27,547 bases of DNA from a virus. Position 1 is the first letter of the stretch; the number at the start of each line of letters is the position of its first letter. Below are positions 2,486 through 24,361 of the stretch, in pieces. The position numbers were made by a program, and so were the translations under genes. The DNA lies in the IMG/VR virus record IMGVR_UViG_3300048834_000491, positions 1 through 27,547 of that record; one strand, given 5' to 3'. The notes under the pieces were generated by a model. It did no database searches. It had not been told where the DNA came from and was given only the letters and a program-made list of their open reading frames with translations.

Positions 2486-2516
2486 AGCATGGCAGGAATC
2501 GGGGGCAGTTACGCGC
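2486..2516 (-). promoter_or_regulatory. Putative late promoter, copy a (weak match)
   Basis: Minus strand reads GCGCGTAA, 17 bp, then CATGCT followed by GAAAT. One base differs from the GCGCGTTA box and the -10 hexamer fits TANNNT poorly, but the spacing and the following GAA agree with the other copies. It lies in the 100-bp gap between the glycosyltransferase and the coiled-coil fibre gene. Confidence 0.45.
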
Positions 2517-2551
2517 TTCTGTGGTTGTGAGAGGGGTGGGGCGTTAGCGGG

Positions 2552-3955
2552 TTAGTGGCAGCGGTGGAGGCTGACCCCTGCGGGTTCGCGCCAGAGCGGC
2601 TCACCACAAACGGGTGGCGGCGCGGCGTTTGCCCAGGTGTTGATTTCCGCGAACAGGAAGTCGGCAGCTCCCACGCCGTCAATGGGGTACTGCTGGATAT
2701 AGACGGCGTCGGGACGGTTGAGTTGCAGCGTCCAGAGCAGTGTCGGCTGGCGAATGTACACCGTCTCGTCGCCGTCGCGGTACCGTGCGATTGCATCCAC
2801 CATATCACTCGGATAGCGGTACGGGTGCTGGTAGTAATCTGCCAGCCCGACCACGCTTGCCAACGTGAACGCCGTCAGCACACACGCCAGCGTGAGCCGC
2901 GACGCTTGCGCCAGCACAGCGGCAGACAGCAGCGCCAGCGGAATAGCAACCGCGCTCAGGTGCAGCCATTTGAACATGCCGTCGCTGAACCGCGCGCCTG
3001 CCCACAGCATGGCATAGCTGACCGCCACCCACAGGAGCGGGAGTGCCAGCCCGTGTAATCGTCGGCGCTGGCGAACCGCGATCAGCAGCAGGGGCACGGC
3101 GACCCCTGCCATGAACAGCACTGTGCCGACCGACCAGCCCGGAAAGCCGTTGTGGAGCACGTTCAGTGCGTGGTAAAGGAAGTCCGACGCCGCTGGCAGC
3201 GTCTGTCCACGGCTAATCACATGGATGTCGCGGCGCAGGTACTGCATGTAAATCAGCAGCACCAGCGCCCCGTAGACAGGCACACGCCGGATGATCCAAT
3301 CGAGCCGATTCACCCGCCGTCCGCGTACCACCTGCACCAGCGTCAGGATGTCCTGCACGAACACAATCGGCATGGCGGCGACGTGGGTCAGCGCAACCAA
3401 CACCCCCGCCAGCATGTTCAGGCGCGGGCGCTTTTCCAGCCAGAACACCAGCGACAGCGTGGCGAACAGCGTCGCCAGCGCATACGGACGCGCTATCTGC
3501 GAGAACGTGACCGGGGCATACGCAAGTCCGACAAGCAGCGCCGTCATCAGCGCGGCCCGGCGTCCATAGAGTCGGAAGGCGGCGCGACTTGCCAGCGCCA
3601 CGGTGAGCACGCCTGCCAGCACCGAGAGCCAGCGCACGGCAAAGCGTCCGTCGAACAGCGTCTGATGGACGCTGGTCAGCAGGAGGTGCAGCGCATTGTT
3701 TGGCTCCGGCGACAGGATTTGTGTCAGCGTGTAGCCGGACGGATGCGCGAGATAGTAGCTGTTGACGTAAGACCACGTTTCGTCAATGTTCAGTTCGGGC
3801 GCAGTCAATCCGTGGAGGCGCAGCCCGAACGCAGTCAGCAGGACGGCGGTGAGGACGAGATAACGGACGTAGAGCGCGGACATGGGCAGGACGTTCTCGT
3901 AAACCAGCAAGCGCCTTGATCTTAATGCGGTTTTTGGCAGCGCAGGATTAAGCAT
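2552..3955 (-). CDS. GT-C fold membrane glycosyltransferase (PMT_2/GT39-like)
   Basis: The sequence resembles polyprenyl-phosphate-sugar-dependent transferases of the PMT_2/RgtA-like superfamily. It has a first membrane helix (about residues 30-47), then the acidic catalytic loop motif NIDETWSY with Asp58-Glu59, then an amphipathic segment, and the family-typical SQIARPYALATLFA stretch. About nine or ten hydrophobic helices follow and the C-terminus (about 370-467) is soluble. Such enzymes move a sugar from a lipid-linked donor to a surface glycan or protein on the outer face of the membrane. I chose the ATG at 3955 because it overlaps the upstream stop (TAATG) and has AAGG 7 bases before it. 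A start 60 bases further upstream is possible but would overlap the fibre gene. Its place between tail-fibre genes suggests modification of the host receptor; substrate unknown. Confidence 0.85.
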   Translation of the reverse strand: MLNPALPKTALRSRRLLVYENVLPMSALYVRYLVLTAVLLTAFGLRLHGLTAPELNIDETWSYVNSYYLAHPSGYTLTQILSPEPNNALHLLLTSVHQTLFDGRFAVRWLSVLAGVLTVALASRAAFRLYGRRAALMTALLVGLAYAPVTFSQIARPYALATLFATLSLVFWLEKRPRLNMLAGVLVALTHVAAMPIVFVQDILTLVQVVRGRRVNRLDWIIRRVPVYGALVLLIYMQYLRRDIHVISRGQTLPAASDFLYHALNVLHNGFPGWSVGTVLFMAGVAVPLLLIAVRQRRRLHGLALPLLWVAVSYAMLWAGARFSDGMFKWLHLSAVAIPLALLSAAVLAQASRLTLACVLTAFTLASVVGLADYYQHPYRYPSDMVDAIARYRDGDETVYIRQPTLLWTLQLNRPDAVYIQQYPIDGVGAADFLFAEINTWANAAPPPVCGEPLWREPAGVSLHRCH

Positions 3956-5511
3956 TACGTCGCCTTCGTCGTCGCCCAGTAATGCCAGCCGCCGTTTCTG
4001 CGACTGACGCGCCAAACCGTCGTGCCCGCGCCAGCGTCGTCGACTTCCCCCTGAAAGCCGTCATTTTGAGCGCCAAAGGCACTCGTCAATTCTGCGTCCG
4101 TTGGCGGGTTGCTCACGTTGGCGTCGCTCAACGCCAGTCCGCCGATCACCTCTTTCTTGTACCCGTAGATACTGAGGCGGGTCGTACTGGTGAATGTGCT
4201 GGTCGGGTCGTTGAAAATCTTCAGCCCGATCCGGTCAATTGCCCCGGTGTTCCGCCAGAAGAACGAGTAGAAGCGCACGTCCATGTTGGCGCTGTCACGC
4301 GCGACGACCATTTCAACCAGCACCCGCTTGTGGAAGCTGGTATCGCCCGGATTGAAGATCGTGATCTTGACGCTGGAAGCGTAGCCCGCTGGCGTCGAAG
4401 CGGACGACCCGCTGACGATAAAGCCGACCTGGTTGTTTGCCTCGGCGTTCACGGCGGCGCCGTTGCTGCCGCCGATGTTCTGCGTGTAGTAGTTGGTCGC
4501 CGTGGTGTCGAGCGCCCCGCCGCCCGTAGCGAACTCGATGTGACCACTGTCCGCCGTCGCGTTGACCGTGCTTTCGGCGTTCTCCAGAAACAGTTCGAGG
4601 CGGTCATAGTCGTCAAACGCGCTGTTCGACAAGTCATACTTGCCGCTCGTCGGCGCAAGGTTTTCGTAAAGCGGTGTGGCGGTGATGCGCTCCAGACTGC
4701 CGCTGCCACCGACGATGACCGGGTTGATGAACTCCAGCCCGTCTTCGGCAGATTTGACCCGCGCCAGCTTCAGCGCCTGCCCGCTGTACGATGCCGGCAC
4801 GTCGGTCAGGTCGGTGAACGCCCCGCCCCCGCCGCCCAGGTCCGCACTGTTGACGATCGCCCCGCTGGCCCGCTTGACGACCCGCAAGCCCTTTTGCTCG
4901 GTGATCTCGATGTCTTCTTCGTTATAGAACTGAAACTTATCCGTTGGGCTGCCGCTGTTGTGGCGCAGGGTAATCGTGTCGCCCGCGTCGGCAAACAGCC
5001 ACGCCTCGTCGCCCACCGCCAGCCCGGTCAGCCCGTCGCAGTCGTCCGTCGTGCTGCTTTCTGCCGCCAGCAGCAGGAAGCGGTCGTCGCCCGCGCTGGC
5101 GACCCCGCTGCTGATCAGCTTGATGACTGGGTCGCCAAAGGTCGGCGGGGGGACGACCGCGCCCCACTCCGGCACCGGGTACGCCGGCAAGTCCAGCCCG
5201 CCGCTCTCCGTGCCGTAGAGGCTGACCCCATCGAGCGGATCGAACTCGAACGCGACCAGCACCCCGCGCACGGTCTTGAACTTGCAGCGCACGTAGGGAT
5301 TCAGCGCCACGCGCGGCACGCAGACGGTGTGCTCAATCGCCAGACCGCGCTGCACCTGGCAGTACACGTAGCCAGGCTGTTCCGGCACGTGGAACTCATA
5401 GGACGTTCCGGCGCTGTTCTCCCGTCCCAGGTAGCCCCAGTCAAATTTTGCCTCGTCTTCGCGCTGCAGAAACCGGCGCAGCCCCGCAAGCGCCCCGTCC
5501 CGGCTTGGCAT
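3955..5511 (-). CDS. Tail fibre / receptor-binding-type protein
   Basis: The protein has 518 residues and sits directly after the hub gene. An N-terminal region (about 1-130) probably attaches to the hub. Around residues 232-263 lies the DLTDVPASYSGQ...KSAEDGLEF motif, often seen at the junction between fibre stalk and head domain. Residues about 280-465 are rich in Thr, Ser and Gly and look like a beta-sandwich ending in STTRLSIYGYKK. A short C-terminal module of about 50 residues (PPTDAELTSAFG to the Trp-rich end) closes it. GGGAG precedes the ATG and the gap to the hub gene is 13 bp. The function is inferred from motif and position; the ligand is unknown. Confidence 0.75.
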   Translation of the reverse strand: MPSRDGALAGLRRFLQREDEAKFDWGYLGRENSAGTSYEFHVPEQPGYVYCQVQRGLAIEHTVCVPRVALNPYVRCKFKTVRGVLVAFEFDPLDGVSLYGTESGGLDLPAYPVPEWGAVVPPPTFGDPVIKLISSGVASAGDDRFLLLAAESSTTDDCDGLTGLAVGDEAWLFADAGDTITLRHNSGSPTDKFQFYNEEDIEITEQKGLRVVKRASGAIVNSADLGGGGGAFTDLTDVPASYSGQALKLARVKSAEDGLEFINPVIVGGSGSLERITATPLYENLAPTSGKYDLSNSAFDDYDRLELFLENAESTVNATADSGHIEFATGGGALDTTATNYYTQNIGGSNGAAVNAEANNQVGFIVSGSSASTPAGYASSVKITIFNPGDTSFHKRVLVEMVVARDSANMDVRFYSFFWRNTGAIDRIGLKIFNDPTSTFTSTTRLSIYGYKKEVIGGLALSDANVSNPPTDAELTSAFGAQNDGFQGEVDDAGAGTTVWRVSRRNGGWHYWATTKAT

Positions 5512-9009: not shown

Positions 9010-11328
9010 TTAGCCTTCACTCCCCAAATCTTCCAGCGCCTGCCAGACCGCCATCCGCACTTCTTCTGGATCGCCGCCGTTCACATTCACCACCAGTGAA
9101 TTGACGCTGACCGAGCGACTGCCCGCGCTGCCGCCGTCCGCCTTAATCACCTTGCCCCAGTCATCGACCAGCGGCGGGAACTTCGGCTTGCCCCCTGGCG
9201 GCAGAATCTTGCCGGAGCCGCCCCCACCGGGGTTACCAATCTCGCCGACCACATCGCCCCAACGCGGGTCGGGCGTCGGCAGCCCGGTCCCACCGCCCAG
9301 CAGGTTGAGCAGCGTCAGCGCGATCCGCAGGTTGTCGATGAAGTCCTCGATGCGCCGGAAGAAGGGGGCAATCGTCACTTCCAGTTCGGCGAAGCGCGTC
9401 TCAAACCAGGTGATGATCGGCTCCAGGTGCGGCTGCACCTGCGCCCACAGGTTTTGCAGCGGCAGGGTGATGTTGTCGTAAATCCACTTTTCGACCGCGC
9501 GCAGCGCGTGCGCCACGTCATTGTTGAACCAGTCGACGATGTCCTGAACATACGGCTCGACCAGCCGCCAGATGCCCTGCAGCGGCTTGACGATGTAGGC
9601 ATCGATCCAGTTGGCAACGCTGGTCACCGCCCCTTGCAGGCTGTCCTCGCCGTCACCGGTCAGCCAGTCGATCAGCGGCTGCACCACCGGCTGCACGCGG
9701 CTCCAGATCATGCCGAAGTAATACTGGAAGTAGAAGCCGACCAGGCTCAGGTTCGCCGGCAGCGCCTCGACAAACAGGATCACCTGCTGGGCGATGCGGT
9801 TGATTTCATTCGCAAACGCCTCTGCCTGCTCGCGCCCCATGCCGAAGCCCTGCAGGATGCCCGCCACCCGGCTCGACCCATCCTCGAAAGCGGTGAAGAA
9901 GTTTCGCAGCGCCCCGCCCAGCCCGTTTTCGCCGATGTCAGCAAGGAAGTTTTGCAGGTGGTAACTGACGACTTCCAACCCGCCCAGCACGTCGACGCCC
10001 AGCACGCTGGCGAACGCCGCGAAGCCGACGACGGTCGCGGCAATCCCCGCCGCCACCATGCCGACCGGACCGAGCAGCAGGGCAAGCGCCGGTGCCATCA
10101 GCTTGATCGCCGTGCCGGCGAGCGTCAGCCCACCGCCGAGCGAGGCGACCGCCCCCACCAGCTGGATGATGCTGGCGGTCAGGTCGGGGTTCGCTTCGAC
10201 CCACTCACTGACCCGGTTGACAATCTCGGTCGCCCGTTCCAGAAACGGCTTCATCGCGTTCATCAGCGGGGTCATCGCCCGAATTTGCAGCGTCTCAATC
10301 GACCCGCGCAGCGCCTCGACCCGCCCACTGAACGTGTTCATGCGCGCCGCCGCCACTTCCGCCGCGCTCGCCGACCCGCCCATCAGCTCCAGCATGGCAG
10401 ACAGTGAGTCGGCGCTGGTCAGGGCGCTCAAGCCCATCTGCCCGAACGCCCCCGCCAGGTCCTGAATCGTGGCGATGCGCTGCTCTTCGGTCATGCCGTC
10501 CAGCCCGCGCCGGATGTCATTGAGCACGTCGATGATCGGGCGCACCTGCCCGGTCGCGTCATACATCGACGTGCCCAACCGCGCCCAGGCGGATTTGGTC
10601 GCGTCGGTGTCGCGGGTCATCGCCGTCAGCATCGAGCGCAGCTGTGTGCCCGCTTCCGCGCCCTTGATGCCGTTTTCGGCAAAGACCGCCAGAATCGCCG
10701 CCGTCTGCTCGACCGAGATGTTGAACTGCCGCGCAATCGGTCCGACGTTGCTGAAGCCCTGACCGAGCGATGCCATGTCCGCGCTCGACGCGCCCGCCGC
10801 CCGTGCCAGCGCGTCGACCACGCTCGCCGCGTCCTCGACCTGCAGCCCGAATGCCGCCAGGATGTCGGTCACCAGGTCGGCTGTCCTGCCCAGGTCTTCC
10901 CCGCTCGCCGCCGCCGCATCGAGCACTGCCGGCAGCGTCGCCATCGCCTCGCTCGCGCTCTGCCCGCTGGTCAGCAGCTGCAGGAAGGCGTCCGCCGCCT
11001 GCTGCGCGCTGAAGCTGGTGTCCGCGCCCATCTGCAGCGCGAAGTCGCTGATGCGCTGTAAATCCTCGCCGACGATGCCCGCCCGCGCCGAAATCTCCGC
11101 CATCGCGTTTTCAAAGTCGGACGCCACCTGCACGCCGCTGACGCCAAACGCCACCAGCGGGGCAGTGATCGCGCTGATGCCCAGCCCGACCCCCTGCATC
11201 GCCCCGCCGATGCGGTTCAGCCGCGCTTCGGTCGCATCCAGGTCGCCCCGGAACGCCCGCAGGACGCCGGTCGCCGAATCGCGCAGGTCCAATGTGCCAA
11301 ACAGGGATGCGACTTCGAGTGCTGACAT
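9010..11328 (-). CDS. Tail tape measure protein
   Basis: The protein has 772 residues. Residues about 50-350 match the phage tape-measure family (PhageMin_Tail/TIGR01760 type): ASDFENAMAEISARAG, the MGADTSFSAQQAADAFLQL helix, and FNISVEQTAAILAVFAENGI. A long hydrophobic segment (about 385-450, rich in Ala, Gly, Val) probably contacts the host membrane during DNA ejection. The C-terminus is Gly/Pro-rich. At about 0.15 nm per residue the tail would be roughly 115 nm. GGTGGGGT precedes the ATG. It starts its own transcription unit, with terminator and putative promoter immediately upstream. No lysozyme or peptidase domain is seen. Confidence 0.95.
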   Translation of the reverse strand: MSALEVASLFGTLDLRDSATGVLRAFRGDLDATEARLNRIGGAMQGVGLGISAITAPLVAFGVSGVQVASDFENAMAEISARAGIVGEDLQRISDFALQMGADTSFSAQQAADAFLQLLTSGQSASEAMATLPAVLDAAAASGEDLGRTADLVTDILAAFGLQVEDAASVVDALARAAGASSADMASLGQGFSNVGPIARQFNISVEQTAAILAVFAENGIKGAEAGTQLRSMLTAMTRDTDATKSAWARLGTSMYDATGQVRPIIDVLNDIRRGLDGMTEEQRIATIQDLAGAFGQMGLSALTSADSLSAMLELMGGSASAAEVAAARMNTFSGRVEALRGSIETLQIRAMTPLMNAMKPFLERATEIVNRVSEWVEANPDLTASIIQLVGAVASLGGGLTLAGTAIKLMAPALALLLGPVGMVAAGIAATVVGFAAFASVLGVDVLGGLEVVSYHLQNFLADIGENGLGGALRNFFTAFEDGSSRVAGILQGFGMGREQAEAFANEINRIAQQVILFVEALPANLSLVGFYFQYYFGMIWSRVQPVVQPLIDWLTGDGEDSLQGAVTSVANWIDAYIVKPLQGIWRLVEPYVQDIVDWFNNDVAHALRAVEKWIYDNITLPLQNLWAQVQPHLEPIITWFETRFAELEVTIAPFFRRIEDFIDNLRIALTLLNLLGGGTGLPTPDPRWGDVVGEIGNPGGGGSGKILPPGGKPKFPPLVDDWGKVIKADGGSAGSRSVSVNSLVVNVNGGDPEEVRMAVWQALEDLGSEG

Positions 11329-11352
11329 ACCCCACCTTTTCCCGTCACTTTC

Positions 11353-11383
11353 AGGCTAACGGGAAGGGCGGGCAGTAACGCGC
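11353..11383 (-). promoter_or_regulatory. Putative late promoter, copy b (tape measure)
   Basis: Minus strand GCGCGTTA, 17 bp, TAGCCT followed by GAAAG. It lies between the terminator after the chaperone genes and the tape-measure start. Copy d upstream of the decoration gene has the same spacing and an identical TAGCCTGAA. Confidence 0.65.
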
Positions 11384-11410
11384 TGCCGCTTCACAGGAGG
11401 GGGAGAAATG

Positions 11411-11434
11411 AAAACCGCGCTGCTGAGCGCGGTT
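11411..11434 (-). terminator. Rho-independent terminator after tail chaperones
   Basis: A perfect 9-bp stem, AACCGCGCT / AGCGCGGTT, with a 4-base loop, followed on the minus strand by TTTT then CATTTC. It lies 8 bp after the stop of the frameshifted chaperone product. Confidence 0.8.
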
Positions 11435-15260: not shown

Positions 15261-16241
15261 TTAGCTTGGGTTGCTGCCGACGACGGCGCGGAAGTCACTC
15301 CAGCCGAAGCTGTAGCGCATCCGTCCGAAGAAGGAGCGCATCAGCGTGCGCGACACATCGTCGTCAACCCCAAAGATTGGATTGAGGCGGTTGATCCACT
15401 TGATGGTCATCAGCGCCATCGGTCCGTCAAGGACAAACCACTTCTTCCCGGTGATTGCCGGGTGAACGATGGTTTGCAGCCCGTCATGGGTGTTGTCACT
15501 GTTGTTGCCATCTTCCGGCGTCTTGTCCGAGCCGGTCAGTTGCAACGCCTTCTGGCGGTTGGCGCGCCCGACGAGCAGCGTCGTGCCCATTGCGTTGGTC
15601 AGCTCGCCGCGATCATCGCCCAGGCTTTCGAGCTTGACCAGCGCCGCTTCCAGGTTGGCGTCGGTCAGCGCCGCCGTCCCCATCGAGTTGTCCACCGCCG
15701 TCGCGTCGGTCTTGCTGCGCGGGTGGTCGGTGGCGACCAACGACTTGCCGTCATAGCCCACCACGGTGAAGGCGTTGTTGAAAATGCTGGCTTCGTCCTT
15801 GACCCGTTTGCGGGCGAACGACTGCCCCAGGTTGCTCGCCTTGTCGAAAATCCCGGCGTACTGCTGGTCTTCGAGCATCGTCCGCTCGACCTTGAAACCG
15901 AGCGTCAGGTGCGTGTGCGCATAGACGATCTCGTAGTCCTTGCTCGGCTCGGTGTAGTAGACCTGTCCGTTGAATTCCTGCGGGTCTTCGAAGCTGCCGA
16001 TGCGCTGGTCCGTTTCCTTCGCCTTATCGCTGGTGCGCACGCCCACGACGCGCCCCACAAGCATCTGCGGCACCTGCGCGTACTGCTGGAAGTAGATTGC
16101 CTCCAGCACCGGGTCGAGATCGACCAATTCGGCAAATTCGGCGCTGCCGACGTGCCAACTGCGCCGCTGGCTCAGGTTGACCTGTGCCTCGGCATCCTGT
16201 CGCCGGGAAGCCCGGCGGGCGAAACTGCGTTGAAGGTTCAT
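15261..16241 (-). CDS. Major capsid protein (HK97 fold, Mu gpT-like)
   Basis: The protein has 326 residues and follows scaffold and cement genes. Features of Mu gpT-like capsid proteins are present: an N-terminal arm rich in Arg, an early YFQQYAQVPQMLVGRVVGVR segment, the loop with VATDHPRSKTD, LEAALVKLESLGDDRGE in the spine-like helix region, and the C-terminal IVHPAITGKKWFVLDGP strand-turn. GAGGAGA precedes the ATG closely, in line with high expression. There is no obvious delta-domain propeptide; assembly probably uses the separate scaffold, perhaps with the ClpP-like protease. Confidence 0.9.
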   Translation of the reverse strand: MNLQRSFARRASRRQDAEAQVNLSQRRSWHVGSAEFAELVDLDPVLEAIYFQQYAQVPQMLVGRVVGVRTSDKAKETDQRIGSFEDPQEFNGQVYYTEPSKDYEIVYAHTHLTLGFKVERTMLEDQQYAGIFDKASNLGQSFARKRVKDEASIFNNAFTVVGYDGKSLVATDHPRSKTDATAVDNSMGTAALTDANLEAALVKLESLGDDRGELTNAMGTTLLVGRANRQKALQLTGSDKTPEDGNNSDNTHDGLQTIVHPAITGKKWFVLDGPMALMTIKWINRLNPIFGVDDDVSRTLMRSFFGRMRYSFGWSDFRAVVGSNPS

Positions 16242-16258
16242 TTCGTCTCCTCTCCCGC

Positions 16259-16660
16259 CTAGGTCTTCAGATAATGGGTGTTGTTGAACGTGACCAGCGT
16301 CGGCTCGTCCGCCGCGCTGTCCGCCACCACGATGAAATCGGCGTTGCTGCTGGTCGTCACGCCCATCCCGCCGCTGGCGAGGTCGAGCGTCGCGCCGGCT
16401 GCCCGCGCGTTCGCATCGACGACCGCGTAAATCGCGCCGGGGTTCATGATCGCGTAGACATACTCGCCGTCGTCGGCATTGTCCACGTCGTGGGTCGCCA
16501 CGCCGATGAACGCCTCGTCGTCGGAAGCGCCCGCGTCGGCTTCGCCGGATTCGAGATTGAGCATCTCGCCCTTGCTGAACACCTCGTCGTTCGCCACCAC
16601 AAACTTCTGGATGATGGGTTCAGAGCCGTCGACCGACCCCGCCCAGGTAAATCCCGCCAT
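16259..16660 (-). CDS. Capsid cement/decoration-like protein
   Basis: The protein has 133 residues, is acidic and almost all beta: FVVANDEVFSKGEMLNLESGEAD, AFIGVATHDVDNADDGEYVY, IMNPGAIYAVVDANARAAGATLDL. Such short Gly/Ala/Asp-rich barrels, encoded immediately before the capsid gene, act as stabilising trimers or cement on siphovirus heads. GAGGTG lies 5 bases before the ATG and the gap to the capsid gene is 17 bp. It shares the same kind of barrel pattern with the protein at 18741-19178, so this phage may have two cement-like proteins. Confidence 0.72.
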   Translation of the reverse strand: MAGFTWAGSVDGSEPIIQKFVVANDEVFSKGEMLNLESGEADAGASDDEAFIGVATHDVDNADDGEYVYAIMNPGAIYAVVDANARAAGATLDLASGGMGVTTSSNADFIVVADSAADEPTLVTFNNTHYLKT

Positions 16661-16663
16661 ACG

Positions 16664-17332
16664 TCACCTCTGCTTTTTACGGCGTGCCGCGACCTGCTCC
16701 GGAGTCAGCTTGTACCCCTGCGCATTTGCCGCAGCCGCCTGCTGTTTGTCTGCTTCCGTCACCTGCACCTGCGTGCCCCCACCAGACCCCCCGCCCGCTC
16801 CCGCGTCCAGATCGGGCGCGCGAGTGGCGGTCAGCAGTTCCCAGTTCGCATCCAGATAGGCGCTTACCTCGTGCGGCGGCAGCGTGGTCGGTATTAGCGA
16901 CCGCATTGCTTCCGGCACTCTGGCAATCCGGGCGTCGTTGCTGGCGCGAAACGCCTTTTCATAGGCTTCGGCGCGCTCCTTGAACGGCTTCAGGGCATCG
17001 GCTTCCTGACGTGCCTGCTCGGCAATCGTCTTGAACTGCCCCTGTTCGGTGAGGCGCGCCTGCTCGGCGGCTGCCTGAGCGTCCTGAAATTCCTTCAGCT
17101 TCGCTTCCGCCGCCAGCTTTGCCTGGTTGACCTCATCAAAGCGCGTCTTGGGAATCATGTGCTCAGTGTTTTGCGTCCCTGCAGACGAAGAATTCCCGTT
17201 GCTGCCGCCGTTCTGGTTCTGCTGCCCGTCGCCTTCCGTGTACCAGCGCCGCCGCTTCGTCAGGTCGATGCCTGCTTCCGCGTTTGTGCGCCGGTTCGCA
17301 ATGCGCCGGGTGCTGCTGGTCTGAGAGTGCAT
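16664..17332 (-). CDS. Capsid scaffolding protein
   Basis: The protein has 222 residues from the ATG at 17332, which has GAGGAA 4 bases upstream; a longer open frame lacks such a site. It shows the usual layout: a low-complexity Gln/Asn/Gly/Ser-rich N-terminus (about 30-60), a long charged coiled coil (about 65-130: KLAAEAKLKEFQDAQAAAEQ, QFKTIAEQARQEADALK) and a basic C-terminal tail (QVAARRKKQR) for binding the capsid subunit. Located one gene before the capsid pair, it would direct procapsid assembly and then be removed. It starts a unit after putative promoter c. Confidence 0.85.
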   Translation of the reverse strand: MHSQTSSTRRIANRRTNAEAGIDLTKRRRWYTEGDGQQNQNGGSNGNSSSAGTQNTEHMIPKTRFDEVNQAKLAAEAKLKEFQDAQAAAEQARLTEQGQFKTIAEQARQEADALKPFKERAEAYEKAFRASNDARIARVPEAMRSLIPTTLPPHEVSAYLDANWELLTATRAPDLDAGAGGGSGGGTQVQVTEADKQQAAAANAQGYKLTPEQVAARRKKQR

Positions 17333-17393
17333 GGGTTCCTCGCTTCGAGTTTTACGTGCAAACGGCACGATTGCGTCTGTTTGGTCTGACTTC

Positions 17394-17427
17394 AGAGTGT
17401 GGGGCAGGTCAGGGACGGTTAACGCGC
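17394..17427 (-). promoter_or_regulatory. Putative late promoter, copy c (non-standard spacing)
   Basis: Minus strand GCGCGTTA overlaps the last codons and stop of the minor head gene. A CACTCT followed by GAAGT comes 20 bp later. The box is exact but the spacing is 3 bp longer and the -10 is poor, so the copy may be weak or coincidental with the stop codon. Confidence 0.4.
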
Positions 17428-18459
17428 ATTGAGCAAATTACTCACGCTCGCCTGCCGAATCATCGCGCCGAACGTTCTATCTTGATACGGCTGCACGAAG
17501 TCCCGCAGGGTCGCCCGACCGCTGCGCAGCGCCTCGTATGCCGCATCGCCCGCCACCCGCCGCGCCCGTTCCTCGTCGAGCGATGCGAACCAGTCTTCGC
17601 CGGTCTGCACGCTGCGCGGTCTGCCGCGCACTTCCGGCAGCGCCACACAGCGCCCGGCGTGGTGGTCGAGCACGCGCTCCCCGACCGCCATCCGCGTCCC
17701 GTGTTCGGCAATGCACGCCAGGCACGTCCGGTCGTCGAGCGTGGCAATCCGAATCTGCCCGGTCAGGATGTCGGCATTGGCGCGGGCGTGAATCGCGCTG
17801 GCGTCCCGGTAGCTGTGCAGCATCAGCGTCCGCAGCAGGGTGTTTGCCTGGGCCACGCTCATCCCTTCCGCCACCCGCCGCACTTCGCGCGCCGTTTTCT
17901 CCGCCGACCAGCCCTCGACCATGCCACGCAGCGCCTGGTTGAACACGGTGTCGCGCACCCGCGCCGGGTAGCGCCGCAGCTCGTCCGCCCAGCCCGTGCT
18001 CGTGGCATAATTCACGAGCGCATTGACCGCTTCCGGGTCCGGCGTCTGCCAGTTCACACCAGCGGCAATCAACACTTCACGGTCGATGCCGCGCAGGGCG
18101 AGTTCGCGCGTCAGCCGCGCCGCCGCGTCGATGCCCGCCGCCTGTGCCTGCCCCGCGTCCGCGTCCATCCGCCGCGCATCCCGCCGCAGCGCCGTGTCCA
18201 GGTCCGCCAGCAGCGCCCGCAGCACCGGGTTATCGCTGTTCAGGCGTTCCCCGACTGCCGCCAGGCGCGCGGCTTCGGCGTCCAGTTCGCGCAGCCGCTG
18301 GGCGACGATGCCCTCGGTCACCGACACGCCGACCGCGCGCAGGGTCGCGCCTGCCGCCCGGCCATAGCCCCGGTCGAGCAGGTCGCGCACCAGCGTGTTC
18401 AGGTTGTTTGTGGATGGGGCAGGGAGGCGGGATTGGGTCACCGTTTTACCCGTGTGCAA
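17419..18459 (-). CDS. Minor head protein, SPP1 gp7 / Mu gpF type
   Basis: The protein has 346 residues. The C-terminal part (about 225-290) carries the Cys/His motif of the phage head morphogenesis family: LMLHSYRDASAIHARANAD, then LDDRTCLACIAEHG and HHAGRCVALPEV. The N-terminal 200 residues are helical. In SPP1 and Mu the protein binds the portal and is present in few copies, possibly aiding DNA exit. The start is a TTG (18459) with AAGG 5 bases upstream, 7 bp after the previous stop; no ATG fits better. The family usually follows the portal directly, but here other genes intervene. Confidence 0.88.
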   Translation of the reverse strand: MHTGKTVTQSRLPAPSTNNLNTLVRDLLDRGYGRAAGATLRAVGVSVTEGIVAQRLRELDAEAARLAAVGERLNSDNPVLRALLADLDTALRRDARRMDADAGQAQAAGIDAAARLTRELALRGIDREVLIAAGVNWQTPDPEAVNALVNYATSTGWADELRRYPARVRDTVFNQALRGMVEGWSAEKTAREVRRVAEGMSVAQANTLLRTLMLHSYRDASAIHARANADILTGQIRIATLDDRTCLACIAEHGTRMAVGERVLDHHAGRCVALPEVRGRPRSVQTGEDWFASLDEERARRVAGDAAYEALRSGRATLRDFVQPYQDRTFGAMIRQASVSNLLNAR

Positions 18460-18466
18460 GGCGACC

Positions 18467-18739
18467 TTAAGGTCGCACCTGATCGTCCGGGTTGCTCAGG
18501 GCATCGGCAGGCGCAGAGTCGTCGCCCGCTTCAACCTGCGGCACCACGTCCAACACCACGGGCTTCCCCTTCGGCGTGGCTGCCGGCAGCACGACCTGCG
18601 ACAGTCGTCCCTCACTGATGACCAGCGTCAGCCGCCCGTCGAGCGCCCCCGGCGTCATGCCTTCGGCTTCGGCGTGGCGAACCAGCCGCGCCACCGACCG
18701 CGCCATCCGCGCGGTAATCTCTGCGTGAAGGGCGTCCAT
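18467..18739 (-). CDS. Small unknown protein in head operon
   Basis: The protein has about 90 residues (MDALHAEITARMARSVARLV...). A GTG three codons upstream is an alternative start that would overlap the preceding gene. The first half is a basic amphipathic helix, the middle (RLTLVISEGRLSQVVLPAAT) is beta-like, and the C-terminus is acidic and Pro-rich. It lies 1 bp after the decoration-like gene and 7 bp before the minor head gene, so it belongs to the same transcript. I recognise no family; a small head accessory is the most that can be said. Confidence 0.55.
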   Translation of the reverse strand: MDALHAEITARMARSVARLVRHAEAEGMTPGALDGRLTLVISEGRLSQVVLPAATPKGKPVVLDVVPQVEAGDDSAPADALSNPDDQVRP

Positions 18740-18740
18740 C

Positions 18741-19178
18741 TTAGGCACCCGTCAGCGGCGCGGTGCCGCGCACGATCTTGAGGTTCATCTTCGACGCGGA
18801 TTTCGCCACGCCCAGGATGACCGGGTAATCGCCGCTGGCGAGGTCGTCCATCGGCGCGATGCCGCCCGCCGTCCCACTCAGGACGTACACGCCGGTGTCC
18901 GCCTGGTCAGACAGGCTCAGCGTCGCGCCTGGCGTGAAGTCGTCGTCTTCCTCGACAAACTCCAGTGGCTGCCCGTTCGACGCGCCGTGCAGGGAGATGC
19001 CCACGCACTTCGCGGTCGCGGCGCTCGCGTCGCAGTCTGCCAGCTTGAGCTTGTTGCTGTCGGCGCTGTCTTCATACAGCGTCTGTCCGGCGGTGATGGT
19101 CGCGCCGGCGGTGCCCCGGCGCTTCTTGGCGTTCGGTCCTGCTAAAACATTGGCTGCGGTCACGGAAATATCCGACAT
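18741..19178 (-). CDS. Decoration/structural-cement-like head protein
   Basis: The protein has 145 residues. The opening MSDISVTAANVLAGPNAK, then GTAGATITAGQTLYEDSADS, the ISLHGASNGQPLEFVEE segment and a closing LASGDYPVILGVAKSASKM form the pattern of a widespread small virion protein family of decoration type. Sequence is acidic and beta-rich. GGACAGGA precedes the ATG. It is the first gene after the strong terminator and putative promoter d, so it starts the head transcription unit. Function as decoration is inferred from composition and location. Confidence 0.7.
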   Translation of the reverse strand: MSDISVTAANVLAGPNAKKRRGTAGATITAGQTLYEDSADSNKLKLADCDASAATAKCVGISLHGASNGQPLEFVEEDDDFTPGATLSLSDQADTGVYVLSGTAGGIAPMDDLASGDYPVILGVAKSASKMNLKIVRGTAPLTGA

Positions 19179-19214
19179 GGTCCTGTCCTCATGCGTAGTC
19201 GATGCATTGCCTTC

Positions 19215-19245
19215 AGGCTAGAGCCAACGCGGGGCGCTAACGCGC
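19215..19245 (-). promoter_or_regulatory. Putative late promoter, copy d (head unit)
   Basis: Minus strand GCGCGTTA, 17 bp, TAGCCT followed by GAAGG. It lies directly after the bidirectional terminator and about 35 bp before the decoration-gene start. It matches copy b at every defined position. Confidence 0.65.
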
Positions 19246-19246
19246 A

Positions 19247-19284
19247 ACTAAAAAGCGCAGCCCGCTCTGTCTGCGCTTTTTAGT
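19247..19284. terminator. Strong bidirectional rho-independent terminator
   Basis: A perfect 14-bp inverted repeat, ACTAAAAAGCGCAG / CTGCGCTTTTTAGT, with a 10-base loop. The T-runs fit termination on either strand. It separates the tRNA/membrane-protein island from the head unit that begins at copy d. Confidence 0.88.
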
Positions 19285-19337
19285 CTTCTGCGTTGCTGCC
19301 GGCGTCGAGTCGCATCCCTCGATCTAAGTATGGCTAG

Positions 19338-19369
19338 AGGGTAGGGCGGGAATGGGGTGGAGAACGCGC
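19338..19369 (-). promoter_or_regulatory. Putative late promoter, copy e
   Basis: Minus strand GCGCGTTC (one mismatch), 18 bp, TACCCT. The next signal downstream is the bidirectional terminator about 55 bp further, so transcripts from here would be short unless they read through to the head genes. Confidence 0.45.
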
Positions 19370-19421
19370 TGAGCAACCGGATTCGGTAAAATGAAATCAT
19401 CGAAATATTCGGAGGGAAATC

Positions 19422-19859
19422 ATGTCAGCGGAAATCGCCTTAATCATCGCCATCGCCGCACTAGTCTTATCAGTTGCAACACCGTTGATCACGGCGATAG
19501 CTTCCCTGCGCGCCGCGGAAAAAGTGCGTGTAGAGACAATGAAACGAGAACAACAGGCTAGGATTGAGGCTAAAGAGGATGCGTTGGTGCTATTCTGGCG
19601 ACGGTCACTTGTTGCTTTAATTGAGTCCCGCAAAGATGCAGCCCGGGCTGCATCTCAAATTCAGCGAACCGAAGCTGTAAACATGGAACTCGCAGGTGCG
19701 TTTTCGAGTGCAAGGGGTATCCTGATGTCGATTGGTGATCATTCATCACACGTAGACGCAATGATGATTGGCGGCGACGAGGCTCAGTCGTTTTTGGCGA
19801 TAGACCGTGGTATGGAGCATCTTGGAAAACTAATAAATGCTGGACTAGGGGGCGAATAA
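19422..19859 (+). CDS. Small membrane-anchored coiled-coil protein on the opposite strand
   Basis: The protein has 145 residues. A single hydrophobic helix (about residues 4-28: EIALIIAIAALVLSVATPLI) is followed by a charged helical region (about 30-85: AAEKVRVETMKREQQARIEA) and a more neutral C-terminus. GGAGGG lies 5 bases before the ATG. It is one of the few genes not on the minus strand, and its composition and upstream region are visibly richer in A and T than its neighbours, as expected for a moron (an independently acquired gene). No family recognised. A membrane-bound role such as superinfection exclusion is only a guess. Inverted repeats follow its stop. Confidence 0.75.
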   Translation: MSAEIALIIAIAALVLSVATPLITAIASLRAAEKVRVETMKREQQARIEAKEDALVLFWRRSLVALIESRKDAARAASQIQRTEAVNMELAGAFSSARGILMSIGDHSSHVDAMMIGGDEAQSFLAIDRGMEHLGKLINAGLGGE

Positions 19860-19872
19860 GGTATGTGGTCAA

Positions 19873-19906
19873 ACGGGGCTAGGACTGTACGGAGTTTTCG
19901 CCCCGT
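19873..19906. repeat. Inverted repeat after the plus-strand gene
   Basis: Arms ACGGGGC / GCCCCGT (7 bp) with a 20-base spacer begin 14 bp after the stop of the membrane-protein gene. A second, 6-bp repeat GGCGGT / ACCGCC lies at 19920-19942. Neither has a clear T-run, so they may be weak terminators or merely structure. The rest of the non-coding stretch up to the tRNA (about 245 bases in all) holds only a 6-bp hairpin, AGGTCG / CGACCT, at 20016-20034. Confidence 0.4.
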
Positions 19907-20104
19907 CACAGTATTGGACGGCGGTTTCACGGTCTCACCGCCAACGGCTTGCTAAAATCATCGTATCGGGCGTAACTGCTGCCCAAACCGCCCGGCGCTC
20001 TCCCCTTGGCTGGGAAGGTCGCTTACGCCGACCTCACGCTTGCCATCATTCGGCGGAGGGTGACAAGTCCCTTGCTCCGCTACATGCCTTGCGCATCCGG
20101 CATG

Positions 20105-20180
20105 TGCCCCCGCCGGGATTTGAACCCGGAACCTTCCCATCTCAGTGAATGGGGTGCGCTGCCGATTGCGCCACGTGAGC
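20105..20180 (-). tRNA. tRNA-like gene with non-standard anticodon arm; isotype uncertain
   Basis: The 76 bases fold as a cloverleaf. The acceptor stem is GCTCACG / CGGGGGC (one G-T and one A-G mismatch). The D arm is GCGC-AATCGGCA-GCGC with the usual GG. The T arm is perfect, CCGGG-TTCAAAT-CCCGG. The discriminator base is A and CCA is not encoded. The anticodon stem CCCAT / ATGGG closes an 8-base loop (TCACTGAG) rather than 7, with one extra base on each side, so the anticodon cannot be fixed; CAC (Val) or another reading is possible. Putative promoter g lies about 90 bp upstream. It could be a functional phage tRNA, a frameshift-type tRNA, or a decaying copy. Confidence 0.78.
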
Positions 20181-20266
20181 ATCAATTCTAAACGTACTGG
20201 GCGGGCTAGGGTCGCCATCCGTCGGCGTCGCGGGCTTCCGGTGACGACCCACCGCCCATGTCCATC

Positions 20267-20297
20267 AGAATATCCCGCCCTTTCCCACCTAACGCGC
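20267..20297 (-). promoter_or_regulatory. Putative late promoter, copy g (upstream of tRNA)
   Basis: Minus strand GCGCGTTA, 17 bp, TATTCT followed by GATGG. This -10 hexamer is the closest to TATAAT of all copies. It begins right at the portal stop codon and points to the tRNA-like gene. Confidence 0.6.
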
Positions 20298-21694
20298 TAG
20301 TTCGCAAACGCCAGCGCAGGCTGCCGCTCGTCGTCCTGGGCATCGTCGAACGCGTCGAAATTGCCGGTCGAGCCGCGCAGCCGGTCGAGCCGCCGCGCCG
20401 CATCCGCGTCCTGCTCGGCAAGGATTTCGTCAATCTTGGTTTCGTCCCAGCCGTAGACCGGGGCGATCAGCCGCAGGAATTCCTTGCGCCCGACGCGGTC
20501 GGCAACCTTGAGCGCATTGTCGATCACCTCCGTGTCGTTGCGCACCTCCGGCTCGTCCCAGATGCAGTCCCAGGTCGGGCTTGCCGGGGCGCGGCGCGTG
20601 CCGTAGGCGTCCTGCACCCGCGCCGCCAGCATGATCACGTCTTCCCACGCATTGCCGCCCTTGACCTGGTAGCGCTTCAGCTTGCCGAGGAAGCCGACTT
20701 CGCGCTGCTTCAGCGCCTCGCCGCTGCTGGTGTCCGCGCCCAGGAATCGCGGCAGGGGCGTGCGGCTGATCGTGCCGATCTGGTCAATCACGAACTGCGC
20801 CTGCTGGATGAACGGCACCAACTGTCCCTGCGGCAGCACAAACGCATCGACCTTCTGGTCAGCGGGCGCTTCCGGAATCGTCACCCAGTCCCCCGGCGCG
20901 ACCGTGTCCGGCGGCGTGAAGCCCAGCGCCACCTTCAGTTGAAACGCCGTCAGCCCGCTGGTCATGATCATGTCGATCAGCGAGCGGTTCAGCGTGTCCT
21001 GCATCGGGATGACCGCCGCCAGTTCGCTGATGCCGCGCCCGTTCTTGCGGTTCGGCACCGCCACCACCGGCACGCCCAGCGGCTGCCCGCTGCGGTCGCG
21101 CCACTGCGGGGCGCTGGTCAGCGTCAGCTTGCCCTCGACCCAGGTGTACTTCTGCACCCGGTCCGGCAGATAGAGGTTGACCTGTTTGCCGTTCGGCTCG
21201 TCCCAGACCTTGATGGCGGCGATCATCGTCTTGCCCAGCCGGTCATACACTGGAATTAACCCGCACGCGCCATCCCATGCCGGTTCGTGGGCGAAGACGA
21301 CGCGCCGCTCGGCGTTGTCAAACGCCACCATCACGAAGCTGACGCCGTCGCGCACCGAGGCTTCGGTCACGTCCATCTGCAAGCCGTCGAAGCGGTTGGC
21401 TTTCAGCAGGTCCGCCGACCAGTTGCTTGCTTCGTCCCCCTCGCCGTCGATGCGGCTGACGCTCAGCCGGTCCGCCATCGCCTGCACGACCATGTCGCAG
21501 TAGTTGAGCACAATTTGCTCGGTGACGTCGGTCTTGATGTTGAGCGCCGCCCGCTGTTTGGCGGTCAGAAACGAGCGCTGCCGCCCCTCGGCATACTCGC
21601 GGTACAAGCGCACCAACGTGCCCCACTGCTGCATTTCCGCCGCCCAGGTGTCGCGCACGCGCCCGCCCAGCAGCGCCTGAAGTTCAGTTAACAT
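20297..21694 (-). CDS. Portal protein (SPP1 gp6-like)
   Basis: The protein has 465 residues and follows the large terminase with an 11-base overlap. The N-terminus (LVRLYREYAEGRQRSFLTAK, then LNYCDMVVQAMADRLSV) is typical of the SPP1 gp6-like portal family. A middle domain contains VPVVAVPNRKNGRGISELAA and MQDTLNRSLIDMIMTSGLTA, and the C-terminal clip/crown region has LPRFLGADTSSGEAL followed by helices and an acidic tail. Twelve copies would form the DNA entry ring at one capsid vertex. AAGGTGGTGAG precedes the ATG. Confidence 0.92.
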   Translation of the reverse strand: MLTELQALLGGRVRDTWAAEMQQWGTLVRLYREYAEGRQRSFLTAKQRAALNIKTDVTEQIVLNYCDMVVQAMADRLSVSRIDGEGDEASNWSADLLKANRFDGLQMDVTEASVRDGVSFVMVAFDNAERRVVFAHEPAWDGACGLIPVYDRLGKTMIAAIKVWDEPNGKQVNLYLPDRVQKYTWVEGKLTLTSAPQWRDRSGQPLGVPVVAVPNRKNGRGISELAAVIPMQDTLNRSLIDMIMTSGLTAFQLKVALGFTPPDTVAPGDWVTIPEAPADQKVDAFVLPQGQLVPFIQQAQFVIDQIGTISRTPLPRFLGADTSSGEALKQREVGFLGKLKRYQVKGGNAWEDVIMLAARVQDAYGTRRAPASPTWDCIWDEPEVRNDTEVIDNALKVADRVGRKEFLRLIAPVYGWDETKIDEILAEQDADAARRLDRLRGSTGNFDAFDDAQDDERQPALAFAN

Positions 21695-23225
21695 TGCTCA
21701 CCACCTTTGCTTCCAGTCGCTGCACGCCACCGGTGAATAAGCCGTATTTCACGGCGTCATACGGATCGTCGCCGCCATTGCCCTGGTCGTCCGTGTCGAC
21801 TTTCAGCACGTCTTCGGGGTTGTTCGGGTCGGCTTCGAGGTAGGGCATCGTCTCGATTAGCCGCTTGCAGTTTTCAGTGACCAACCAGCGCGGCGGGCTG
21901 GGCGGGTCAGCGTCCGGCTGTCCCAGCAGGCGGGCGATGTGATGCGCCCCGGCGACTCGGCTGCCCGGTCCCATCTGCGCGGCGGTGATCGACACACCGA
22001 GCGCCTTGTACTGCTCGGCGACCGACTGTTTCGCCGCGCCGGTCTTGCTGAAGACGTCCGACCCGGCATAGAACTTGTCGAGCAGCCCCAGTGTCAACCC
22101 GTATTCCGCCAACACCGCGCGCAGCTCCGGCACGATCTGCTCCGGGTAGTGCTTGCGGTGCGCCAGTTCCGCGAAGGTGTAAATCACCCCGTCGTCGCTT
22201 TTGGCGTGCAGGTAAATCACATTCCAGTGGTTGAAGCCGTAGTCCATGCTCGCCCACGTGCGCCACTGGCGGGGCGGGGTGAACGCCTTGACAACATGCA
22301 CGTCGTAGCGCCACTGGTCGAAATACGCCCCGGCGCTCACGTCCCAGTCGCCTTCCAGGTATGCCCGGCGCTCGACGCCAGTCAGCGATTCCAACGTGCC
22401 GCGATAGTCGGCGTTGACTGCCCGGTTGTCATCGACCGTCGCAAAGATGAACTTGCGCGTGCGGTCCGGCACGTCAGCATAGGTGCGCTCGTGGTCGATG
22501 AATCGCTGCTTGTATTCCTTATGCCCGACGCCGAGCGGGTTGGTCGTGTTGTACAGGCGGGGTCGCCAGCCGATTTTGCTGGTGCGCGCCGACTGGCGCA
22601 GCGCCTGATGCACGCGACCGCGCAGCTGCGTGGCTTCTTCGTTGGTGATGCCGTCATACTCAATCCCGGCGTAGTTCATGGCTTCCTTCTCGGTGCGGAA
22701 GTGCCCGATCAGGATGTACGAGCCGTTCGGGAATTCGACCCGCCCCCGCGTGTAGCGGTGGTCGACGTAGCGCAGCACCGCCATGATCAGGTCTTCAATC
22801 TGCTCCAGCGCCCGCTTGCCGGTCATGCGCAGGTAGAGCCACTTCAGCCCGTCATAGCGCCGGCAGTCGTCGACAGCCATCTGCGTGAAGACGCCGAACG
22901 ACTTCCCCGGTCCCTTCGCGCCGCCCATCCCCAGCTCCGGCGCGCCTTGCTCCACTCCCGCAATCGGAGTCGCGGTGTCGAGCTTGCGCGCCCATGCTGC
23001 GAATTCGAGCTGCTTCGGCTGCAGCACAATTCGCGCCCGCTCGAAGTTGGCAATCTGGTCGGGCGGGTTGCCCAGTCGGGCAATCGTTGCGCGGTAGGTA
23101 GCCCAGGACTGGTGCAGCGTCTCGGCGGGGTAGAACTTCGCCACCCGCTCGTCGAGATCACGCTGCAAGACCCGCCGCGCCAGCAGTCTGCCCAAGTCCC
23201 GCGTGTCGAGCGCAGCAGTGGACAC
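21684..23225 (-). CDS. terL: Terminase large subunit
   Basis: The protein has 513 residues, the normal size. The ATPase part has a Walker A-like loop GGAKGPGKS at about 101-109 and an acidic Walker B-like region near IEYDGITNEEATQ (about 187-200), followed by a coupling-type segment GWRPRLYNTTNP. The nuclease part begins at WASMDYGFNHWN (Asp328), continues through LGLLDKFYAGSDVF, and ends with DDPYDAVKYGLFTGG, which supplies the last acidic residue of the RNase H-like site. It packages DNA into the procapsid and cuts the concatemer. The start is GTG directly after the protease stop (TAAGTG). Confidence 0.93.
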   Translation of the reverse strand: MSTAALDTRDLGRLLARRVLQRDLDERVAKFYPAETLHQSWATYRATIARLGNPPDQIANFERARIVLQPKQLEFAAWARKLDTATPIAGVEQGAPELGMGGAKGPGKSFGVFTQMAVDDCRRYDGLKWLYLRMTGKRALEQIEDLIMAVLRYVDHRYTRGRVEFPNGSYILIGHFRTEKEAMNYAGIEYDGITNEEATQLRGRVHQALRQSARTSKIGWRPRLYNTTNPLGVGHKEYKQRFIDHERTYADVPDRTRKFIFATVDDNRAVNADYRGTLESLTGVERRAYLEGDWDVSAGAYFDQWRYDVHVVKAFTPPRQWRTWASMDYGFNHWNVIYLHAKSDDGVIYTFAELAHRKHYPEQIVPELRAVLAEYGLTLGLLDKFYAGSDVFSKTGAAKQSVAEQYKALGVSITAAQMGPGSRVAGAHHIARLLGQPDADPPSPPRWLVTENCKRLIETMPYLEADPNNPEDVLKVDTDDQGNGGDDPYDAVKYGLFTGGVQRLEAKVVSNVN

Positions 23226-23792
23226 TTAGCCGACCCGCCGCACTTCGGGCACGTCGCGGTCGAGGTCTGCCAGCGGGTGCGCCATGCCCAGCTTGATCAG
23301 CGTCGCGGCTTCGATCAGCTTGCAGCCGTTGCTGCCCGCGTCCTGCATCATGTCGAACCAGTGCGACGACGGCTTCCCGCTGATGCGTGCCAGCAGCTCG
23401 GAGATGATCTGTTCGGTCCGTTCCGATTCCAGCGTCAGCAGGCGCGCATCGCGGCTGTCGACCTTGTCCATGTCGGTCCATGCGACCTTGTGGATGCCGA
23501 TGCTGGCATTCGGCGAGACGTAGCGCCGCTGGCACGCCGTCCAGATCGCGCTGTGGCTCGAAATCGCCGCGCCCACCAGCAGACCGACGCAGTTGCCGTG
23601 CTGCTCGATCAAATCGACAATCGCCAACATCGACCGCGAACTGCCGCCATCGCCCCGACAGTAGATGCGGATTTCCTCGGCAGGGCGGTCGACCACCAGC
23701 GCCTCCAGCATCACTTCGTAAACCTCATGGCCGATGTCCTGCGGCAGCACGATCAGCCCGCGTTCCAGCAGCTTCTTCTGCGTGTCATTCAT
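23226..23792 (-). CDS. ClpP-like serine protease, probable head maturation protease
   Basis: The protein has 188 residues and a ClpP/crotonase-like fold pattern: IRIYCRGDGGSSRSMLAIVD (the Gly pair of the oxyanion strand at about 49-50), VGAAISSHSAIWTACQRR with the likely nucleophile Ser78, then SPNASIGIHKVAW with His101, and a later EAATLIKLGMAH helix as in ClpP. Phage members of this family process capsid or scaffold proteins. Its place between the two terminase genes is less usual than next to the portal or capsid. The start overlaps the small-terminase stop (ATGA). The third catalytic residue is not assigned. Confidence 0.82.
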   Translation of the reverse strand: MNDTQKKLLERGLIVLPQDIGHEVYEVMLEALVVDRPAEEIRIYCRGDGGSSRSMLAIVDLIEQHGNCVGLLVGAAISSHSAIWTACQRRYVSPNASIGIHKVAWTDMDKVDSRDARLLTLESERTEQIISELLARISGKPSSHWFDMMQDAGSNGCKLIEAATLIKLGMAHPLADLDRDVPEVRRVG

Positions 23793-24250
23793 AGCCGTTC
23801 ACTGTCCCGTATCTCGCGTAACCCGTCGACAAAATCGCGCAGCACCTCATCCAGCGTCTTGCCGCGCTCCTGCAAATAGGCGGCGACATCGTCGGGGATC
23901 AACGCCGCGCCGTCCTTGCCGGTGAATTCGCTCCGGCTCGACCAGCGTCCCTCGGTCGGGAAGTGGGTCAGCACGAACTTCGACGCCTCGAAGCTGCCTT
24001 TCTGCAATTCGTAGTTGATGTTGCGCTCGGCAAGCTCGAACATCTTGTCGCGCTGGAAGTCGACGTGCTCGCGCAGCCCGTAGCGGTCAATCCAGTTGTA
24101 GACCGTCTGCCGCGCCACGCCGAAGTGCTCGGCGGTCGCCGTCACGTTGCCGCCGTGCGCTTCCAGTGCCAGCCGCACGCTCTTGTGGTCGCGCCGCGGC
24201 GCTCGCGGCTTGCTCGTTTTGCCTGTTTTTGTGCTGCCTGTCCCTGCCAC
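23789..24250 (-). CDS. terS: Terminase small subunit-like DNA-binding protein
   Basis: The protein has 153 residues. A basic N-terminus (about 1-24) precedes a helix-turn-helix (about 25-58): GGNVTATAEHFGVARQTVYN-WIDRYGL, of the Fis/homeodomain-like type used by many small terminases to recognise packaging sites. A helical oligomerisation region and an acidic C-terminus (DEVLRDFVDGLREIRD) follow. The start is GTG at 24250 in a G-rich leader; no ATG is suitable. It is the first gene of the packaging operon and overlaps the protease gene. A plain transcription factor is the alternative, made less likely by its place before the large subunit. Confidence 0.8.
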   Translation of the reverse strand: MAGTGSTKTGKTSKPRAPRRDHKSVRLALEAHGGNVTATAEHFGVARQTVYNWIDRYGLREHVDFQRDKMFELAERNINYELQKGSFEASKFVLTHFPTEGRWSSRSEFTGKDGAALIPDDVAAYLQERGKTLDEVLRDFVDGLREIRDSERL

Positions 24251-24329
24251 CCGTCCAACCTGTCCACTCGAAGGGCGTTTCTTTTGCCCGATAATGCGAC
24301 TACACGAACATGGGTTCTCATGTGGATCG

Positions 24330-24361
24330 ACCGTAGCACAGGGGGGCGGGGTGTAACGCGC
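24330..24361 (-). promoter_or_regulatory. Putative late promoter, copy f (packaging operon)
   Basis: Minus strand GCGCGTTA, 18 bp, TACGGT. It lies 20 bp after a terminator and 80 bp before the small-terminase GTG, so it would start the whole packaging operon. Confidence 0.55.

Follow-up and report, generated by a model that had tools for sequence, protein, structure and literature searches.

What reads a short sequence element that recurs before the late genes of an uncultivated phage, and does it switch these genes on? The question is raised by the IMG/VR record IMGVR_UViG_3300048834_000491, a contig of 27,547 bases (G+C 0.64) which was analysed in its entirety and is referred to below as the window. 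The octamer GCGCGTTA is repeated on its minus strand, which carries nearly all of the genes, and is typically followed, after 17 or 18 nt, by a hexamer resembling a bacterial -10 box. Comparison of the window with related phages leads us to consider it probable that these elements are late promoters, in which the -35 hexamer has been replaced by the binding site of a phage-encoded winged-helix activator.

The original prediction listed seven copies of the element, and the coordinates and sequence of each were confirmed. The exact octamer begins at positions 24361, 20297, 19245, 17427 and 11383 of the minus (late) strand (five copies, vs 0 on the plus strand). TANNNT is present 17-18 nt downstream in five of the seven copies (24361, 20297, 19369, 19245 and 11383), and the bases after the -10 position read CTGAA at 19245, 17427, 11383 and 2516, and CTGAT at 20297. 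All copies occupy gaps or gene ends: that at 20297 lies directly past the portal stop codon, that at 17427 includes the stop codon of the MuF gene, and the others are intergenic. Terminator-like hairpins precede the copies at 24361, 19245 and 11383. The elements are as follows (G and L numbers are our handles for related phages and contigs; TerS, small terminase):

24330-24361, minus strand: element before TerS, GCGCGTTA-N18-TACGGT, with a hairpin upstream (about 24381-24409); the TerS slot is kept in G401/G404, G406, L163, L164, L006, L195 and G331.
20267-20297, minus strand: element just past the portal stop codon, GCGCGTTA-N17-TATTCT, with a transfer RNA (tRNA) gene downstream; among relatives, found in this place only in the near-identical L111.
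19338-19369, minus strand: weaker element, GCGCGTTC-N18-TACCCT, the upstream one of two tandem copies in front of the decoration gene; the corresponding slot of G403 likewise contains two.
19215-19245, minus strand: element before the decoration-like gene, GCGCGTTA-N17-TAGCCT, directly after a hairpin (about 19250-19281); decoration slot, 30/55.
17396-17427, minus strand: element spanning the MuF stop codon, ahead of the scaffold gene, GCGCGTTA-N18-CACACT; scaffold slot, 35/61.
11353-11383, minus strand: element before the tape-measure gene, GCGCGTTA-N17-TAGCCT, after a terminator (11413-11434); same slot in G404 (42770), L175, L176 and L191.
2486-2516, minus strand: doubtful copy, GCGCGTAA-N17-CATGCT, before the open reading frame (ORF) 1393-2451; octamer mismatched.

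In 2000 dinucleotide shuffles of the window the minus strand never contained five exact copies of GCGCGTTA, and four copies of GCGCGTTA-N17/18-TANNNT never arose (expected number 0.004). A chance origin of the elements is excluded. Octamers with one mismatch are not enriched as a class (32 matches vs 40.6 expected), and the two mismatched copies (19369 and 2516), which were chosen post hoc, are therefore weaker and depend on their context. The copy at 19369 is plausible, since both halves of the element are present and G403 likewise has two copies before its decoration gene; that at 2516 has no comparative support. The anatomy originally proposed, a sigma-70-type -10 box combined with a non-standard -35, was upheld. 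A -10 hexamer whose second base is A and whose sixth is T lies 17-18 nt from the octamer, inside the 16-18 nt typical of ordinary sigma-70 promoters, and is conserved in relatives; it takes the form TANNNT in four of the five exact copies, the fifth (17427) having CACACT instead. GCGTTA agrees with TTGACA at two of six positions, and a scan of the window found no canonical promoter at these sites.

About 25 contigs of related phages (Anaerolineae/Chloroflexota) share the element. It stands upstream of the small terminase, decoration and scaffold genes, and in some cases of the tape-measure gene, with the family consensus GNNCGTTA-N17/18-nAnnnT and a -10 that is mostly TAGGNT or TAGCCT. The pattern NNNCGTTA-N17/18-nAnnnT was counted upstream of each gene in all relatives, with the opposite strand as the control; the counts, which are not independent because some contigs are near-duplicates, were 13/27 for the TerS slot (opposite strand 0), 30/55 for the decoration slot (4/55), 35/61 for the scaffold slot (3/61) and 5/32 for the tape-measure slot (0). 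Control slots (MuF, major capsid protein, the 16259-like gene and adaptor) gave 4/231 on the late strand vs 5/231 on the opposite one. When each of ten phages was searched for its own octamer, 31 copies were on the late strand and 2 on the other. The idea of a late promoter family is strongly supported by this recurrence at corresponding genes of diverged phages, always judged on the late strand, as well as by the lack of enrichment in host genomes described below.

Individual phages repeat the arrangement of the window. G002 (L004) has the octamer twice, before the decoration gene and between MuF and scaffold, which are the slots of the window copies at 19245 and 17427. In G404/G401/G402 and in G406 the element precedes TerS, decoration and scaffold genes (the scaffold form of G404 being GTGCGTTA), and G404 has an additional copy before the tape measure (42770). 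Most of the copies before TerS and decoration genes directly follow a T-rich terminator-like hairpin. A MuF-based scan gave 80 loci; in the MuF tree, of which the branching order and not the support values was read, the element is scattered across branches, a pattern in which one gain and many gains are not separable. A search for relatives by the tape measure gave none, a phylum-wide portal search gave distant matches only, and prophages of Anaerolineae linked through TerL, the large terminase (G216, G241, G259, G287, G296, G321, G352 and G369), were set aside as uninformative, as they share TerL only, or TerL and one further gene.

Some departures from the common arrangement were also recorded. 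The MuF gene is inverted relative to the remaining late operon in L187, L191, L212 and L186, and in L187 it has its own element, GCGCGTTG-N18-TACCAT. The scaffold slots of L121 and L126, devoid of the octamer, have in common TTGACAC-ATryGT-TATAAT, with 7 nt between the hexamer-like parts, which is perhaps another late signal. In G406 (L140 2776, plus strand), GCGCGTTA-N17-TATCCT lies on the opposite strand before a plus-strand ORF for a membrane/coiled-coil protein (2854-3705), which may be a late gene lying apart from the main block.

The original prediction also held that the early region is free of the element. The window contains only about 3 kb of the early part, so this claim depends on relatives such as G404 (L137, 43.5 kb), in which four copies lie at late genes on the late strand and a fifth lies on the other strand, within an integrase gene. 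G404 carries two integrase-like genes and genes for a Cro/CI-type helix-turn-helix (HTH) protein and ParA, and ends within a repeat between two tail genes, which is consistent with a near-complete, circularly permuted temperate phage. Perfect TTGACA-N18-TATAAT promoters are present at 26388+ and 28953+, in the immunity and rightward region, and the late units carry the octamer class. Two predicted promoter classes are therefore held by this genome: an ordinary one, which fits host RNA polymerase with an ordinary sigma factor, and the octamer class, which probably needs a further factor, since a recognisable -35 is missing. A repeat of about 26 bases (GTCGGGGGTGAGGCTTCTTTGCGCCC) also occurs in gaps and at gene starts in many places of G404, both contig ends included.

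A candidate for this factor is encoded upstream of the terminase genes:

25658-25912, minus strand: candidate activator, an 84-amino-acid winged-helix protein encoded about 1.3 kb upstream of the TerS promoter; predicted structure and co-occurrence.

Its AlphaFold model is a winged helix (predicted local distance difference test, pLDDT, 87) with the recognition helix at residues 51-63, EQTLRRDMSKLWR. In an initial comparison, the protein was found in every element-bearing phage with sequence available upstream of TerS, and was missing in relatives devoid of the element. Among contigs covering both parts, 11 had both protein and element, 1 the protein only, 1 the element only and 15 neither (Fisher p = 6e-6). 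Searches with the protein alone brought in L163 and L164, and both carry the element: GCGCGTTA precedes TerS, decoration and scaffold genes in L163, and L164 has two GTGCGTTA copies ahead of TerS and a single one ahead of the decoration gene. The same kind of search of Anaerolineae genomes led to a prophage in a 5.63-Mb contig (G331), which has portal, MuF, scaffold and head genes of the family and GTGCGTTA before TerS, decoration and scaffold genes (0 on the opposite strand of the late region). G112, too, has a gene for a related protein, on a 7-kb contig without a clear element.

No match to the protein was found by sequence in the PDB, none with confidence in PHROGs, and only a weak one to HTH_DeoR in Pfam. 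The model is a classical winged helix, and a fold search of the PDB likewise retrieved nothing more specific than generic winged helices (best Foldseek E 5e-3). The nearest chains are PefI (Z 10.3) and IscR (Z 10.2), and Fur also has this common fold; such fold lists do not separate families, the double-wing domain of MotA type included. In G406 (L141 11397-12893) the winged-helix domain forms the start of a 498-residue protein, in which a second HTH weakly resembles sigma region 4 (17 bits, below the cut-off).

The octamer and the recognition helix both vary among the phages. The CGTTA core is constant, partly by design of the search, and so are helix residues R55 and R56; the L195 motif was found without that constraint: when hexamers suitably spaced from TAnnnT were counted without bias, TTCGTTA came out first, with sites in the TerS slot, in the decoration slot, after MuF and upstream of the scaffold gene. 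Octamers beginning with GCG or GTG accompany the helices EQTLRRDM (window, G404, G406, G002, L163 and G331), EQTLRRYM (L164) and EGSLRRDM (L187 and L191). Those beginning with GAT accompany EATLRRYM (L006, with L003; counted as one phage kind because their terminases match), and NTT is found with EGYIRRNM (L195). GCGCGTTA is the form of the window, and GATCGTTA and GTTCGTTA occur alongside the L006 and L195 protein variants. T at position 3 is limited to the two lineages with the most altered helices (L006/L003, GATC; L195, NTTC). Within a single phage the octamer changes in concert. L208-L210 have the form GAGCGTTA, on contigs that do not cover the protein region. The co-variation of helix and octamer is no more than suggestive. 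A strict pairing of helix residues 52 and 57 with octamer bases 2 and 3 was considered and dropped, as it is broken by G331, L187 and L191.

The mechanism that we propose from these comparisons is as follows. Host RNA polymerase would read the elements as late-gene promoters, with the host sigma factor contacting the -10 (nAnnnT) and GNNCGTTA, bound by the winged-helix protein (25658-25912), standing in for the -35 contact. The activator would be produced from the operon immediately upstream of the terminase genes, and its appearance would switch on jointly the separate late units (terminase, decoration, scaffold and head, tail), several of which would be insulated by a terminator immediately before the promoter. 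The sequence of the element, its spacing, strand and gene slots, the lack of host enrichment and the co-occurrence with the protein were observed; promoter activity with its transcription start, contact between protein and octamer, and a positive instead of a repressive effect are the predicted steps.

Several observations weigh against this mechanism. The Fisher test ignores shared ancestry, and L212 has the protein with no element seen, on a contig without most of the slots. Only two lineages show T at position 3. The EGSLRRDM phages (L187 and L191) retain G there despite the loss of Q52, and C or T at position 2 is unconnected to D or Y at residue 57, so the code between helix and octamer is not one-to-one. 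The winged-helix protein could also act in replication or control adjacent genes, and simply be inherited along with the late module.

The original prediction had offered a phage activator or an alternative sigma factor as the recogniser; the evidence on the winged-helix protein favours the former, and no phage sigma factor was found. Among Pfam-detectable domains, no sigma-region-4 domain exceeded the cut-off in ten phage contigs (G404 included), and a second sigma-region-4 family had none over the cut-off in four of these ten and no match in the G331 prophage; nor did any of the early proteins scanned, from G404 and G331, match a sigma model above the cut-off. Alternatively, the octamer might be read by an alternative sigma factor of the host (e.g. 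of the extracytoplasmic function, ECF, type), the winged-helix protein having another role. The geometry is indeed sigma-like (the octamer ends 17-18 nt from the -10), and about 26 sigma-region-4_2 domains exceed the cut-off in the G331 host. We nevertheless think this unlikely. The exact element with TANNNTG (octamer GCGCGTTA) is no commoner than the reversed control in 396 Anaerolineae genomes, and GTGCGTTA-N17/18-TANNNT has 3 matches vs 7 for the control in the G331 chromosome, one of the three being the prophage's own site. For want of enrichment in either set, a host-wide promoter class or alternative sigma regulon was rejected. Moreover, ECF promoters usually lack TAnnnT, and the concerted change of the octamer within single phages fits a phage-encoded partner better.

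Less probable still is that the octamer is an operator, and that late promoters of the prophage are repressed when the winged-helix protein, or some other protein of the phage, occupies the -35. The phages are temperate, G404 and G331 having integrases and HTH proteins of Cro/CI type, and a winged HTH at the -35 could block sigma. However, the octamer replaces the -35 rather than overlapping it, and the promoters would be poor without help, as GCGTTA matches TTGACA at so few positions; in addition, the gene of the winged-helix protein belongs to the operon that precedes the terminase genes and not to the immunity locus.

In sequence, the closest known system is that of SPO1, whose late promoters (CGTTAGA(N17-19)GATATT) depend on gp33/gp34 (PMC3601020). 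Late genes, several copies, the CGTTA core in the -35 and a similar spacing are common to both, and the -10 hexamers GATAAT, GACAAT and GATACT of some scaffold slots are near GATATT. A sigma-like late factor of this kind, too divergent to be detected, is nevertheless very improbable here: the GA after CGTTA is absent, CGTTA is about 2 nt closer to the -10, which is mostly TAGGNT, and, whereas SPO1 depends on sigma-like proteins, no sigma-like gene was found in the ten contigs and no sigma domain in near-complete G404 or the G331 prophage. Equally improbable is a non-promoter site (packaging, recombination or RNA signal) spread through the late region, since, although several copies lie at gene ends or stop codons, the -10 partner is kept at a fixed spacing, terminators stand immediately upstream, and the copies are confined to unit starts on the coding strand.

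The proposed winged-helix activation resembles sigma appropriation at T4 middle promoters, where the site of MotA (acting with AsiA), (a/t)(a/t)(a/t)TGCTTtA at 12 +/- 1 bp from the -10, replaces the -35 and the -10 is kept (PMC6755090, PMC2988021). The anatomy is alike, with a putative activator site in the place of the -35. In contrast to T4, the distance of GNNCGTTA is 17-18 nt; MotA combines a double-wing DNA-binding domain with an activation domain and needs AsiA, whereas the candidate described here is predicted to be one small winged-helix domain, of unrelated sequence; and MotA serves middle genes, the elements of these temperate Chloroflexota-type phages serving late ones. Since distance, sequence and protein differ, the system would work like that of MotA without belonging to it. 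In Mu, one small phage DNA-binding protein, C, activates the dispersed late promoters lys, I, P and mom (PMC4461284), a likeness at the level of promoter arrangement. Unlike in Mu, the element is a short asymmetric octamer at the -35 position. In Gram-positive temperate phages, small late regulator genes of the RinA, ArpU and LtrC types are located just before the terminase genes, as is the gene of the candidate activator, which has no Pfam or PHROG match to those families.

The genes concerned form a single minus-strand series in the window: a few small genes, TerS, Clp-like protease, TerL, portal, decoration-like protein, MuF, scaffold, major head protein, head-tail genes, tape measure and tail genes. 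They were assigned by PHROGs unless stated otherwise:

9010-24250, minus strand: late structural genes downstream of the elements.
23789-24250, minus strand: TerS.
23226-23792, minus strand: Clp-like protease.
21684-23225, minus strand: TerL.
20297-21694, minus strand: portal.
18741-19178, minus strand: decoration(-like) gene, by position and homology among relatives.
17419-18459, minus strand: MuF.
16664-17368, minus strand: scaffold, by position and homology among relatives.
15261-16241, minus strand: major head protein.
9010-11328, minus strand: tape measure.

The tRNA gene downstream of the copy at 20297 (20104-20180, minus strand; Rfam 48 bits) has an anticodon loop of eight bases (TCACTGAG), from which ARAGORN derives an anticodon of four bases (actg). 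The tRNA might read a shifted frame, or the gene might be in decay. In the tail region, 2552-4015 (minus strand) encodes a multi-helix membrane protein with weak mannosyltransferase similarity (PMT_2, below the cut-off).

None of the phage records compared with the window DNA was a near match. The relatives of its TerL are found in uncultivated phages and Anaerolineae genomes, and the host is therefore probably a member of the Anaerolineae/Chloroflexota. Phages of Chloroflexota are known nearly all from metagenomes only, and a limited literature search found no paper on the timing of their gene expression. More tentatively, we suggest the possibility that a single winged-helix domain (about 60-85 residues) takes over -35 recognition without a co-activator and has been re-tuned, together with all late promoters of its genome, in several lineages, which would make it a minimal, diversified specificity switch. 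A readable late promoter code, a candidate activator and natural variants of each constitute a directly testable regulatory system. The element also provides a means of finding late operons in unannotated contigs, and the activator and its promoter may represent a compact orthogonal pair.

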